Shown piece after piece: positions 3,100 to 41,632 of a DNA stretch of 64,000 nucleotides. The DNA comes from Flavobacterium sp. Sd200. GTDB taxonomy: Bacteria; Bacteroidota; Bacteroidia; Flavobacteriales; Flavobacteriaceae. Position 1 is the stretch's first letter. Every line of letters begins with the position of its first letter. A program made the position numbers and the translations under genes. The stretch spans positions 124,001 to 188,000 of the forward strand of contig NZ_WUMN01000003.1 of NCBI RefSeq assembly GCF_009826935.1, read 5' to 3'. The notes beneath the pieces are model-generated. The model did no database searches and was not told where the DNA came from. It was given only the letters and a program-made list of their open reading frames with translations.

Positions 3100-3540
3100 T
3101 TTTTCCATTTCTATGCTATAGAACGCAGATTATTCGGATTTTCTTCGCGTGCCGTCTTTACGGGGAGGCACGACGAAGCAATCTAACTATTTTGCTATGG
3201 AACGCGGATGACACGGATTAGGCGGATGCACACGGATTTTTTAACAACCGTCACCTCACTACGTAAATAAAATAACAGATGGCTTCGTTCCTCGCCATGA
3301 CGTGTGTGAAAAAGGCAATTTGAAAATCGTCCGGTACCTTTCTCTGTGTGTCTCTGTGAAACCTCAGCGCACCTCTGTGTAATAACCTGTTCTCGGAATA
3401 TCGAAACTTAGTGCCATTAGTATCTTAACTTCGTGAGGCTTTGTGTCTTCTTTGCGTGTCTTTGCGATATAAAATCCGTGTCATCGCGTTCCAATCTGAA
3501 AAAAAATATTAAATAAGCCTACAACTTCTATAGAGTAATA
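3100..3540. repeat. Intergenic patch of degenerate inverted repeats upstream of cysH
   Basis: No gene was found. At 3198-3218 GGAACGCGGATGACACGGATT is mirrored at about 3474-3493 by its reverse complement with one base missing, forming outer arms about 255 bp apart. Inside lie CTCTGTG/CTTTGCG-rich stretches (3343-3384 and 3438-3468) that resemble the arms around the GxxExxY gene at 20695-21162. A small hairpin (3149-3180) ends in ACGAAGCAATCT, a motif seen in dispersed bacterial repeats. It looks like piled-up relics of palindromic elements. Confidence 0.6.
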
Positions 3541-6553: not shown

Positions 6554-6702
6554 CTCGCAAAGTCGCAGAGGCGCAAAGTTGAGAACAGGGAAAGAAACGA
6601 ATTTATAGAAGCGACGTAAGTTGCGAAGCTTTGCGACTTATGTCGCGTGCTTCAAAGGCTCTATAATCAGGATGCAGCTTTGCGCCTCAGCGCCTTTGCG
6701 TG
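6554..6702. repeat. Nested palindromic element, copy A
   Basis: Outer arms 6554-6578 and 6678-6702 are reverse complements at 22 of 25 positions (built on CGCAAAG, CGCAGAG). Between them is a central palindrome, 6611-6646, with 18-nt arms. Its three imperfect pairs (6616/6641, 6622/6635, 6625/6632) are all G.U-compatible in a + strand transcript. Flanking spacers do not match the other copies. The element lies between the converging terminators of cysN and the M43 protease gene. Confidence 0.85.
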
Positions 6703-19840: not shown

Positions 19841-20659
19841 ATGATTATTCAAAAAACAAGAGAACAGATAGAACTGATGCGCGAAAGTGCATTGATAGTC
19901 AGCAAAACACTTGGCATGCTTGCCACCGAAATAAAACCCGGGGTTACTACCCTTGAACTTGACCGTATTGCCGAAGAGTTTATTCGCGACCATGGTGCCG
20001 TTCCCGGCTTTAAAGGCTTGTATGGCTGTCCGTCTACACTGCTTACCAGCGTGAACGACCAGGTGGTGCACGGCCTGCCTACCAACCGCCCAATTGAAGA
20101 GGGTGATGTAGTATCGGTAGACTGTGGTGCGCTTAAAAACGAATATTATGGCGACCATGCCTATACTTTTGAGGTGGGCGACGTTGCCCCCGAAACCAAA
20201 AAACTTTTACAGATAACTAAAGAATCGCTTTATGTGGGCATCCGCGAGTTTAAGGCCGGAAACCGCGTAGAGGATATTGGCAGCGCTATTCAGCGTTTTA
20301 CTGAAGCCGAAGGCTATGGTGTGGTGCGCGAGCTTGTGGGGCACGGCCTTGGTAAAAAAATGCACGAAGAGCCTAATGTGCCCAACTATGGCAAACGTGG
20401 GCGTGGCAAATTGTTTGTAGAGGGGATGGTTATCGCCATTGAACCGATGATAAACATGGGTACAAAAAATATTCGTACCCTTAAAGATGGCTGGACGATT
20501 GTTACCCGCGATGGTAAACCAAGTGCACACTTTGAACACGATGTTGCCCTTATAGACGGTAAACCCGAACTGCTGAGTACCTTTGCTTATGTATATAAAG
20601 CCCTTGGTATTGTGAGTAATGAGGAGGATGAGTTTAGGAGGGAGCCGTTGGTGGTTTAA
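19841..20659 (+). CDS. map: Type I methionine aminopeptidase
   Basis: Removes the initiator Met from nascent proteins in the cytoplasm. The 272-residue product has the pita-bread fold landmarks: VNDQVVHGLP, metal ligands in SVDCGA and YYGDHAYTF, GHGLGKKMHEEPNVPNYG (His ligand), IAIEPM (Glu ligand) and HFEHDVAL (Glu ligand). It lacks the N-terminal zinc-finger extension of some family members. The C-terminus carries about 20 residues beyond the usual core. The next unit downstream is the inverted-repeat-bracketed GxxExxY gene, which separates map from the methyltransferase gene. Confidence 0.95.
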   Translation: MIIQKTREQIELMRESALIVSKTLGMLATEIKPGVTTLELDRIAEEFIRDHGAVPGFKGLYGCPSTLLTSVNDQVVHGLPTNRPIEEGDVVSVDCGALKNEYYGDHAYTFEVGDVAPETKKLLQITKESLYVGIREFKAGNRVEDIGSAIQRFTEAEGYGVVRELVGHGLGKKMHEEPNVPNYGKRGRGKLFVEGMVIAIEPMINMGTKNIRTLKDGWTIVTRDGKPSAHFEHDVALIDGKPELLSTFAYVYKALGIVSNEEDEFRREPLVV

Positions 20660-20694
20660 GTTTTTAAGCTGTAACACAAAGACACAAAGACACT

Positions 20695-21162
20695 AATTTC
20701 ACAGAGATTCGCAGAGCAGGCACAGAGATACACAGAGCTAATGGAAATAAATGATTTGACAGGGAAAATTATTGGTTTGGCAATGGAAGTACACAGGAGT
20801 TTAGGACCTGGTTTGCTCGAATCTGCTTACTGTGAGTGCCTTGCTTATGAAATACACAGTAATGGCTTATATGTTGAAAGACAAAAAGCATTGCCTATAA
20901 TTTATAAAAATATAAAACTCGACCATGGATACAGAATTGATCTTTTAGTTGAAAATATGCTTGTGCTTGAGTTAAAAACCGTTGAATGTTTTACCGACGT
21001 ACATTATGCGCAAATACTTACTTATTTAAAACTGGGAAATTACCTGGTAGGCCTTTTAATTAATTTTCATACTAAAATTCTGAAAGACGGAATAAAACGT
21101 TTCGCTAATTAAAAATAAACTCTGTGGATCTCTGTGTCTGCTCTGCGAATCTCCGTGAAATT
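20695..21162. mobile_element. Compact element: GxxExxY nuclease gene enclosed by 43-bp inverted repeats
   Basis: Arms 20695-20737 and 21120-21162 are reverse complements at 40 of 43 positions and hug the enclosed gene (3 bp before its ATG, 7 bp after its stop). Arm words (CACAGAG, TTCGCAGAG) resemble those of the nested palindromes elsewhere in the window (CGCAAAG, TCGCAGAG). The right arm ends 4 bp before the start of the next gene. A further ACACAAAGACAC stretch (20674-20693) abuts the left arm. No transposase or target-site duplication was seen, so mobility is inferred from structure only. Confidence 0.55.
20741..21112 (+). CDS. GxxExxY protein (PD-(D/E)XK nuclease-like)
   Basis: A 123-residue protein of the GxxExxY family, which is grouped with the PD-(D/E)XK nuclease superfamily. 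The signature is G24-L-L-E27-S-A-Y30. Candidate active-site residues are Asp67 (YRIDLLV), Glu77 and Lys79 (LELKTV), with Gln91 in a following helix, all in the order expected for the fold. The nucleic-acid substrate and biological role of this family are not established. Its placement inside close-fitting inverted repeats suggests it acts on, or spreads with, those repeats; that is inference. Confidence 0.85.
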   Translation: MEINDLTGKIIGLAMEVHRSLGPGLLESAYCECLAYEIHSNGLYVERQKALPIIYKNIKLDHGYRIDLLVENMLVLELKTVECFTDVHYAQILTYLKLGNYLVGLLINFHTKILKDGIKRFAN

Positions 21163-21166
21163 TGCC

Positions 21167-21931
21167 ATGAAGAAACTCTTTAAACTTATACTCAATACCA
21201 TACCACGCCCACTACTAATACGTCTTAGTTATGTGGCGCGCCCCGTGCTTGCTTTTGCCTTAAAGGGCAGCACTTATACCGACCCAATAGACGGGCGCAG
21301 TTTTAAAAACTTTTTGCCTTATGGTTACGGGCATCAGCGCAACAATGTATTGTCGCCCAGTACGTTGAGTTTAGAAAGACACCGCCTGTTGTGGCTGTAC
21401 CTAAAAAATGAGACTGACTTTTTCTCAGCACCAAAAAAAGTACTGCATTTTGCGCCGGAACAGGCATTTTACAAACTGTTCCGTAATCAGAAGAATTTGG
21501 ACTATACTACTACCGACCTCTACTCACCACTGGCTGATGTTAAGGCCGATATATGTAACCTGCCGTTTAAGGATAATGAGTATGACCTGATATTGTGCAA
21601 CCACGTATTAGAGCACATTCCTGATGATACTAAAGCCATGCAGGAACTGTATCGCGTACTTAAGCCGGGCGGCATGGCTATATTGCAAATTCCGCAGGAT
21701 TTAAAGCGCGAAACTACTTTTGAGGATGATACCATTACCGACCCAAAAGAGCGTGCCCGTATTTTTGGGCAGTACGACCACGTGCGTGTTTATGGTCGTG
21801 ATTATTTTGATAAGTTGCGCAGCATAGGTTTCAGGGTAGTGGAAGAAGACTATACCAATAAGATACCTGCTGCCGATGTAGAGCGTTTTTGCCTTGCAAA
21901 AGGGGAGATAATACCGGTTTGCTTTAAGTAG
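21167..21931 (+). CDS. Class I SAM-dependent methyltransferase
   Basis: 254 residues. SAM-binding features are VLHFAPEQAFYKLF (motif I-like), YTTTDLYSP, LILCNHVLEHIPDD and YRVLKPGGMAILQIP. The N-terminal about 60 residues are hydrophobic and basic (LIRLSYVARPVLAFAL). The frame is open from 21134, but that extension reads through the inverted-repeat arm, so the ATG at 21167 (MKKLFKLILN) is taken. This leaves only 4 bp between arm and start codon. The substrate is unknown; the PGGMAILQIP type is common in small-molecule and glycan methyltransferases. Confidence 0.85.
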   Translation: MKKLFKLILNTIPRPLLIRLSYVARPVLAFALKGSTYTDPIDGRSFKNFLPYGYGHQRNNVLSPSTLSLERHRLLWLYLKNETDFFSAPKKVLHFAPEQAFYKLFRNQKNLDYTTTDLYSPLADVKADICNLPFKDNEYDLILCNHVLEHIPDDTKAMQELYRVLKPGGMAILQIPQDLKRETTFEDDTITDPKERARIFGQYDHVRVYGRDYFDKLRSIGFRVVEEDYTNKIPAADVERFCLAKGEIIPVCFK

Positions 21932-24213: not shown

Positions 24214-24359
24214 TTTCACGCAAAGTCGCAGAGTCGCAAAGTTTACGACAAATAAGTACATATTTTTAAGCGACGTAAGTCGCAAAACTTTGCGACTTAC
24301 GTCGCTTAAGAGAATTCTAACCGAAAAACAGCTTTGCGCCTCTGCGCCTTTGCGTGAAA
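24214..24359. repeat. Nested palindromic element, copy B
   Basis: Outer arms 24214-24241 and 24332-24359 match as reverse complements at 26 of 28 positions. The central palindrome 24266-24309 (22-nt arms) is perfect except for the middle pair. It contains GCGACGTAAGTCGC and its mirror, as in copies A and D. It sits alone in the apaG-TetR gap. Confidence 0.9.
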
Positions 24360-30804: not shown

Positions 30805-30945
30805 TCTCGCAAAGGCGCAGAGGCGCAAAGCTGTAAGTTTTTTTAGGTTTTTAAGCGGCTGTTAAGCCGCTAAGCTTAGCGGCTTAACAGCCGCTCGGAA
30901 TTAGAATGTCACCGCTGAACTTTGCGTCTCTGCGCCTTTGCGAGA
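30805..30945. repeat. Nested palindromic element, copy C (variant core)
   Basis: Outer arms 30805-30830 and 30920-30945 match at 25 of 26 positions. The core 30854-30895 is a perfect palindrome of 21-nt arms but with a different sequence: each arm contains GCGGCTGTTAAGCCGC rather than GCGACGTAAGTCGC. The small stem has changed on both sides (A-T to G-C), keeping its pairing. No gene in 30743-31051. Confidence 0.9.
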
Positions 30946-37051: not shown

Positions 37052-37186
37052 TTTCACGCAAAGGCGCGGAGGCGCAAAGTTGGGAAGTTGATAAATTACA
37101 TGTTTAAGCGACGTAAGTCGCAAAGCTTTGCGACTTACGTCGCTTTGAAGAAATTCTGATTGGCAATACTGCGCCTTTGCGTGAAA
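37052..37186. repeat. Nested palindromic element, copy D
   Basis: Left arm 37052-37079 (28 nt); the right arm is shortened to 37169-37186 (18 nt), lacking the inner CTTTGCGCC part. The core 37106-37145 is a perfect 40-bp palindrome with GCGACGTAAGTCGC in each arm. It shows that the core can stay perfect while an outer arm decays. Confidence 0.88.
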
Positions 37187-37211: not shown

Positions 37212-37267
37212 ACACGAATTGCACCAATTTACACAAATCTATTCGTGTAAATTGGTGCAATTCGTGT
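37212..37267. repeat. Perfect 23-bp inverted repeat (AATTCGTG family)
   Basis: Arms 37212-37234 and 37245-37267 are perfect reverse complements around a 10-nt loop, built on ACACGAATTGCACC. A degenerate half copy lies near 36962-36984. It sits just downstream of the minus-strand PH-domain operon and could end its transcripts, though it lacks a run of T. Confidence 0.8.
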
Positions 37268-41490: not shown

Positions 41491-41632
41491 TCACGCCAAG
41501 GCGCAAAGACGCAAAGTTGGGGAGCTGATAGAGTGCATGTTTAAGCGACTGTAAGTCGCAAAGCTTTGCGACTTACAGTCGCTAGGAGTGCTTTAAAGTT
41601 TTTTAACTTTGCGTCTTTGCGCCTTGGCGTGA
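41491..41632. repeat. Nested palindromic element, copy E (both levels perfect)
   Basis: Outer arms 41491-41518 and 41605-41632 are perfect 28-nt reverse complements (TCACGCCAAGGCGC...). The core 41544-41583 is a perfect 40-bp palindrome with GCGACTGTAAGTCGC in each arm, one base longer in the inner loop than copies A, B and D. Perfect symmetry at both levels suggests recent arrival or active correction. Confidence 0.92.

Follow-up and report, generated by a model that had tools for sequence, protein, structure and literature searches.

GxxExxY nuclease genes framed by inverted arrays of a seven-base word: members, it seems, of a so far undescribed family of miniature mobile elements

The window (the whole stretch of 64,000 nucleotides analysed, from Flavobacterium sp. 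Sd200) carries between map and a methyltransferase gene a small gene of the GxxExxY family, enclosed by two inverted arms; these features and the gene-less arms found elsewhere in the window are collected in Table 1. The inverted arms proposed in the first-pass annotation are real: the segments 20695-20737 and 21120-21162 are identical at 40 of 43 positions, and the 48-nt version (20695-20742 and 21115-21162) at 43 of 48; in 20 simulated windows (Markov-1) the best 43-nt inverted pair, taken within 600 bp and with a common 12-nt seed, reached only 30 of 43 or fewer. Both arms consist of repeated CRCNRAK words, and the left one extends outward by three copies. The ORF between them is intact and belongs to the GxxExxY family, as first supposed, with matches to PF13366 (PDDEXK_3; E 4.7e-41, 140.3 bits against a curated cut-off of 22) and TIGR04256 (GxxExxY; E 1.1e-42, 145.1 bits against a curated cut-off of 35); no other Pfam family matched the gene up to E 1. 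The methyltransferase, whose ATG at 21167 does lie 4 bp beyond the right arm, is present in 60 of the 61 genus genomes searched, its own genome (G000) counted.

Table 1. Features of the GxxExxY unit and of the gene-less arms in the window
Feature	Position	Strand	Evidence
map (methionine aminopeptidase), left neighbour	19841..20659	+	PF00557
Three extra outer words, CACAAAG, CACAAAG and CACTAAT, between map and the left arm	20675..20697	+	Word chain 20675-20737
Left arm, words CACAGAG-CGCAGAG-CACAGAG-CACAGAG	20695..20742	+	43/48 against the right arm
GxxExxY gene, 123-aa PD-(D/E)XK nuclease of RecB/Cas4-like type	20741..21112	+	PF13366, TIGR04256, AF2 model, fold match
Right arm, inverted copy of the left one	21115..21162	-	Arm alignment
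Methyltransferase, right neighbour	21167..21931	+	PF08241
Intergenic stretch with arms in three dialects, CGCGGAT on the outside and both CACAGAG and CGCAAAG within	3197..3500		Word chains; outer pair by eye
Gene-less arm pair (MITE-like), CGCAAAG words at 8-bp spacing, inner palindrome	6556..6700		Word chains, genome matches
Gene-less arm pair (MITE-like), inner palindrome	24219..24354		Word chains, genome matches
Gene-less arm pair (MITE-like), inner palindrome	30808..30942		Word chains, genome matches
MITE-like copy, worn right arm (L171)	37057..37184		Word chains
Hairpin of two CACGAATT-dialect arms, almost no spacer	37213..37266		Word chains
Gene-less arm pair (MITE-like), inner palindrome	41494..41629		Word chains, genome matches

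As for the protein, its AF2 model (pLDDT 96) had as best solved fold SSO0001 (4ic1), which we take to be a Cas4 protein, with a VIA Z of 9.8 over 99 residues at 3.6 Å and a Foldseek E of 2.8e-3; no Foldseek match reached E 1e-3, the other VIA Z values were middling, and only 4ic1 stands out. No solved homologue was found by sequence search up to E 1, and the similarity to Cas4 profiles was weak (E 0.015 and 0.024). The residues E27, D67, E77 and K79, already singled out in the first-pass annotation, are invariant in an alignment of 31 sequences, like Q91 and Y95, and all six, together with Y30, are kept in 137 or 138 of the 138 family members; from this conservation of the catalytic residues, an active enzyme seems to be maintained across the GxxExxY family. 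The motif E-D-ExK-QxxxY is linked to RecB/Cas4 nucleases, and the alignment, the model and the fold matches together revealed the E...D...ExK...QxxxY residues on a PD-(D/E)XK fold, as in proteins of the RecB/Cas4-like type.

The genome of this organism (4.53 Mb) encodes two further GxxExxY proteins, and the three genes differ in clade and in arms: L007 has tight 41-nt arms of a different word (CGCGGAT/CGCAGAT; 39/41 by eye), and L008 lacks a matching right arm and comes after two gene-less arm pairs, one of them full and the other partial.

Regarding the generality of the arms, the survey included 126 genes in 123 loci from the genus and the phylum, mostly the best-scoring matches of each search rather than a random draw; 121 genes were kept and five were dropped for short flanks. 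The 250-bp upstream flank of each gene was aligned to its reverse-complemented 250-bp downstream flank, and the threshold was a score above 28, the 99th percentile of 315 control positions elsewhere in the same loci. Inverted arms above this threshold occurred at 87 of the 121 genes (52/68 in the genus and 35/53 in the wider phylum), and 34 genes (28%), L008 included, had none; when the flanks of different genes were paired at random, 94 of 1210 pairs exceeded the threshold, and direct (same-direction) repeats did so at 30 of 121 genes. Among the named loci, 52 of 77 passed (80 among the matches listed, three of them dropped); in both samples most genes have arms, against the refuting outcome named in the first-pass annotation. 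By NCBI names, 19 of the 26 named loci beyond Bacteroidota had arms, or 14 of 19 once Chlorobi, Ignavibacteria and Balneolota were set aside; the groups covered include Alpha- and Betaproteobacteria, Anaerolineales, Planctomycetota, Opitutae and Nitrospinota, mostly as metagenome bins, and the locus from 'Rhizobium' (L263), with Flavobacterium-like arms, may be mis-binned. The gene itself is frequent, with PF13366 found in 121 of 150 sampled genus genomes and in 151 of 296 across the phylum.

The arms are arrays in which CRCNRAK recurs every 8-12 bp. Over 122 genes, the 160 bp upstream held 2.48 words per gene in sense versus 0.57 in antisense, and the 160 bp downstream 2.62 in antisense versus 0.49 in sense; shuffled flanks contained 0.16-0.21 words each. 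The distances between words peak near 9-10, 21, 31 and 40 bp, with a pooled best period of 10.0; the L008 clade and the MITE-like copies have instead a period of 8 bp, and some loci 9, for which reason helical phasing in general is not claimed and a strict 10.5-bp helical phase was dropped. The first-pass annotation had suggested that the nuclease might read a palindrome formed by the arms; this is not needed, the signal being a spaced array of short words.

PF05635 genes (four-helix-bundle proteins, n=30) served as control, and had 0.17-0.33 CRCNRAK words per flank; the arm words are thus not equally dense beside unrelated genes, and empty sites, described below, were also found. From this control, CRCNRAK arms belong to GxxExxY, and the architecture is not unique to it. 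At the PF05635 loci (L287-L316; 23S IVP-like), 13 of 30 had above-threshold inverted arms of another word, roughly 7 bp by eye (AGTAATC and TTAGCTA, for example), forming a parallel arm-flanked gene family; since these proteins are not nucleases, arms need not imply a nuclease.

The window also holds gene-less arm pairs: four are full, measure about 150 bp and enclose an inner palindrome, a fifth has one worn arm, and others are partial. Their arms (CGCAAAG at 8 bp) differ from those of the window gene. In the whole genome, MITE-like matches of at least 85 bp fall in at least 21 places among 50 matches, the places being our own grouping, with 40 of 46 candidates scored. The inner palindromes vary between copies and yet are largely symmetric, as in AAGCGACTGTAAGTCGC and GAGCGGCTGTTAAGCCGC; 13 copies had 11 distinct left halves, with 232 matched and 31 mismatched positions. 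The hairpin of Table 1 is an orphan arm pair, none of the three GxxExxY genes of the genome falling in the CACGAATT-dialect clade, and at 3197-3500 the three dialects lie together as if elements land in older ones. Another arrangement was seen in genome G042 (L278, 6478-7402), where a tandem array with a period near 178 bp has one CGCAAAG arm per unit, in six copies.

Among 135 sampled elements elsewhere, the four best arm matches to the MITE-like arms were L134, L108, L139 and L147, whose nucleases are exactly the four nearest kin of L008. When an L008-type nuclease was defined by at least 66% identity, 23 of 150 genomes had one, and the MITE-type arms were present in 20 of these 23 versus 32 of the 127 others (p 2.7e-8), counts that are lower bounds, with five candidates scored per genome, and that may in part represent the gene's own arms. 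The same arms occurred in 13 of 35 genomes with only a more distant nuclease match (p 3e-4; 10 of 27 in a hand-picked subset of them) and in 1 of 29 genomes without any GxxExxY gene; when at least three arm matches were required, the figures were 15 of 23 L008-type genomes versus 20 of 127 others (p 2.9e-6). The type of nuclease that a genome encodes is indicated by its gene-less arms.

The association between arms and gene was also followed across genomes. Ten random 20-kb stretches per class (200 kb each), drawn from five genomes with the gene and five without it, had 7 versus 2 word chains, six of the seven lying in one tandem array; as these stretches were uninformative, an arm model built on sequence only was adopted. 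Over 150 genomes, this model found arms in 104 of 121 gene-bearing versus 8 of 29 gene-less genomes (p 1.8e-9); this and the other Fisher values overstate the certainty, because the genomes are related. The median copy number was at least 6 in the former and 0 in the latter, with up to 44 copies in one genome with five genes, all counts being lower bounds with at most 47 candidates scored per genome.

As for its setting, the gene had both neighbours co-directional at 94 of 110 loci, both opposed at one and mixed at 15, versus 128, 22 and 107 of 257 random triplets; the named set was less extreme (41 ++, 4 -- and 20 mixed), and in these counts some syntenic sites were entered more than once. 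A tblastn search with the window protein gave no match in 50,697 phage records and matches in 8 of 72,556 plasmid records, where the gene is nearly absent; the idea of phage or plasmid cargo was rejected on these figures.

The junction between map and the methyltransferase gene was compared in 30 genomes (L039-L068). Type A units, with CACAGAG-like words, numbered 11, with L061 and L062 decayed; type B units, with CACGAATT words and a different nuclease subfamily, occupied 7 of the 30; short gaps of 18-30 bp were found in five genomes, and five others (L040, L041, L054, L064 and L067) were empty, with a bare TAATG in which the map stop overlaps the methyltransferase ATG. Syntenic intervals lacking the unit, which the first-pass annotation had looked to, therefore exist, and the five bare overlaps define the empty sites. 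At this same junction, L042 carries upstream of the methyltransferase a gene-less palindromic insert of 145 bp, of the CCTGCAAGG...CCTTGTAGG type, which is a different kind of repeat; L050 (2266-3762) has, in place of a GxxExxY unit, a gene for an AAA_21 ATPase together with an ORF of 152 aa that matches no Pfam family, indicating that other cargo is accepted here. Occupancy, followed on the methyltransferase tree, required at least 10 changes versus 12.6 when shuffled, 30 of 500 shuffles being as low, in a count of 27 genomes that leaves out L042, L050 and L057, the last a real type B occupant; with L057 as type B and L050 as empty, the values were 11 and 13.5. Occupancy is nearly unstructured on the host tree, and slightly less scattered than shuffled.

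A second junction, bioF|bioD (names given by eye from sequence; the Pfam families are aminotransferase and AAA_26), was approached with a 2.3-kb query against 150 genomes, and the match runs through the unit in several species. Twenty hand-picked intervals, classified by eye, contained two empty sites (L339 and L344), a 24-bp remnant (L338), solo right arms, which belong to two or more dialects (L337, L340, L341, L342, L345 and L355), gene-less arm pairs (L351 and L354) and a decayed gene with arms (L356); L352 has a DUF2007-like gene and a solo arm, and in L343 no gene and no clear arm were seen. In L346-L350 and L353 the interval is occupied by a DUF2007-like gene that has no arms (PF09413 was just under the cut-off in L346, the one tested). 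The flanks of empty and occupied sites are too diverged for a target-site duplication to be defined. The earlier idea of a minimal mobile element holds to the extent that the unit comes and goes at both junctions, in empty, occupied, decayed and arm-only states.

The dialect of the arms was then compared with a tree of the nucleases (138 rows, 104 of them labelled; proteins below 90 aa were left off). The last base of the word, G or T, required 3 changes on this tree versus a shuffled mean of 22.5 (minimum 17), or 22.6 (minimum 18) when shuffled within genus and other; these three changes are too few for an independent-pairs test to reach significance. The alternatives CAC/CGC required 9 changes versus 33, GA/AA 11 versus 35 (28 when shuffled within genus and other) and the spacing class 21 versus 37 (n=96), and elements of different clades can differ in dialect within one genome. 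The identity between the left and right arms of one element exceeded that of the cross-pairs formed with its closest kin in all 14 of 14 cases at 55-70% protein identity, in 20 of 39 at 70-85%, in 10 of 32 at 85-95% and in 3 of 13 above 95%. Residues 29 and 33 associate with the dialect (22/25 versus 12/79, and 18/25 versus 5/79), with only three dialect changes underlying this, and the two residues are at most a candidate specificity code.

The match between dialect and clade shows that gene and arms form a stable unit; it is compatible with recognition and is no proof of it, because co-inheritance alone suffices. Since the arm word tracks the nuclease clade, the best reading is that the nuclease would recognise its own arms.

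From all these results, the unit is probably a minimal mobile element, made of a nuclease gene and of two inverted arms that are putatively the nuclease's own recognition arrays, and its relatives look like an undescribed family of miniature mobile elements. Counting against this reading are the 34 of 121 genes without arms above threshold, the direct repeats at 30 of 121, the 8 of 29 gene-less genomes that keep arms, the 32 of 127 genomes with L008-type arms and no nuclease of that type, the arms of PF05635 genes, the falling share of elements whose own two arms match best as protein identity rises, and an occupancy slightly less scattered than shuffled. A wider proposal, to which we give not quite an even chance, is that of an unrecognised class of mobile elements found in several bacterial phyla: a single Cas4/RecB-like nuclease would read regularly spaced 7-bp words on inverted arms and mobilise its own gene and, in trans, gene-less pairs, word and spacing acting as a diverging recognition code. 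In the mechanism envisaged for the minimal element, the RecB/Cas4-like nuclease would bind the spaced words of the arm and cut at or near the arms, in cis and in trans; host repair, by recombination or end joining, would then move or copy the DNA between the arms, and we know of no strand-joining chemistry in a lone nuclease of the PD-(D/E)XK fold. The destinations would be gene junctions or pre-existing arms, and selection would retain the copies placed between co-directional genes in sense orientation. The same junctions are used repeatedly, and arms in several dialects lie together at 3197-3500; both findings suggest that new arms are drawn to those already there.

Other explanations have to be weighed. 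The arms might be the ends of an ordinary transposon or MITE family moved by another enzyme, with GxxExxY as a passenger that has a separate job, such as repair or defence; gene-less arm pairs are indeed common, 34 of 121 genes are without clear arms and the non-nuclease PF05635 has a similar architecture. This explanation is nonetheless unlikely: the arm dialect tracks the nuclease clade, and gene-less arms match the nuclease type that their genome encodes. It is less probable still that the host, by a shared process acting on arrays of repeats (recombination, slippage or end joining), propagates whatever small gene lies between arms, so that GxxExxY and PF05635 are captives and the nuclease merely makes the breaks: the inverted arms of a word of about 7 bp at 13 of 30 PF05635 loci and the piling up of several dialects in one place would fit, but the word is bound to the family, with CRCNRAK at about 2.5 per flank at GxxExxY genes versus 0.17-0.33 at PF05635 genes, and the active site is kept in 137-138 of 138 proteins.

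That the arms are RNA structures, an attenuator or a stability stem of an operon-embedded gene, is very improbable. The sense placement of the gene between co-directional neighbours (94/110) agrees with it, and so do the mismatches between MITE-like arms, 11 G-U-compatible versus 4 not, a sample too small to weigh; the arms of genes instead have 117 G-U-compatible transitions versus 120 other mismatches, with no G-U bias, so that the symmetry is one of DNA and RNA pairing is not favoured, and solo arms and gene-less pairs occur besides. Finally, it is scarcely credible that the arms serve as operators by which a toxin- or defence-like nuclease regulates itself, and not as the ends of a mobile unit. 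Regularly spaced words do resemble binding sites and a weak Cas4 profile similarity exists (E 0.015), but a downstream arm, gene-less pairs and orthologous empty sites would be unexpected, and the gene is nearly absent from plasmids (8/72,556) and not found in phages (0/50,697).

The mobile-element reading ties GxxExxY to a concrete DNA partner and explains a class of CRCNRAK intergenic repeats; it also offers a reason why some junctions between core-operon genes differ from one species to another, and the enzymes and sites, naturally matched in pairs, could serve to decipher a recognition code. Should the nuclease by itself drive the movement, this would be a mobile element without any known type of transposase. 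In the parts seen of the open PubMed Central papers (bioRxiv not among them), searches by protein name and Pfam accession gave no description of the arms and no role assigned to GxxExxY proteins, and searches for the arm strings returned only a text on fish environmental DNA, judged by its title; within these papers, the association between GxxExxY and the arms is regarded as undescribed.

Compared with known systems, PF05635 units are like GxxExxY units in having a small gene within inverted arms of short words (13/30), and differ in protein family, word and period (about 7 bp by eye), with no CRCNRAK enrichment. MITEs and their parent insertion sequences share with them the inverted ends and the coexistence of enzyme-bearing and gene-less forms in one genome, and the orthologous empty sites by which such elements are judged were found at both junctions (L040, L041, L054, L064 and L067; L339 and L344); unlike these elements, the GxxExxY unit has no recognised transposase gene, and its ends are word arrays. 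A Porphyromonas MITE, in the part of its description seen, has an unrelated 23-nt repeat (PMC4596501).

PD-(D/E)XK homing endonucleases such as I-Bth0305I, whose catalytic domain came up as a weak fold match (rank 30, E 0.30), likewise offer a small nuclease gene behaving as a selfish unit; the GxxExxY unit, however, lies between genes, and the empty map|methyltransferase sites are without the arm word, here assumed to be the site, so that simple homing into an allelic site does not account for the first insertion. Cas4/RecB-type nucleases have the same fold and the same E-D-ExK-QxxxY residues, with SSO0001 as best solved match, whereas the GxxExxY nuclease is a stand-alone protein of 123 aa; a GxxExxY-domain call has been given, in the excerpt available, where CRISPRone saw cas4 (PMC8934634).

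In their working, the units resemble REP/REPIN-RAYT systems, which, in the sections seen, are described as inverted doublets outside genes, present in many non-autonomous copies, together with an enzyme encoded by the genome, whose groups co-evolve with the repeats (PMC3116915, PMC8266576); the E. coli RAYT, an HUH tyrosine transposase, processes single-stranded REP (PMC8266576, likewise seen in part). GxxExxY units also have gene-less inverted doublets that co-vary with the enzyme, but their enzyme is a nuclease of the PD-(D/E)XK type, and their signal consists of short words arrayed 8-12 bp apart in inverted arms hugging the gene. The likeness is therefore one of working and not of membership, the HUH enzyme being absent between the arms; in this sense the parallel with REP/RAYT drawn in the first-pass annotation was apt, as gene-less arm pairs exist and pair with the nuclease type.
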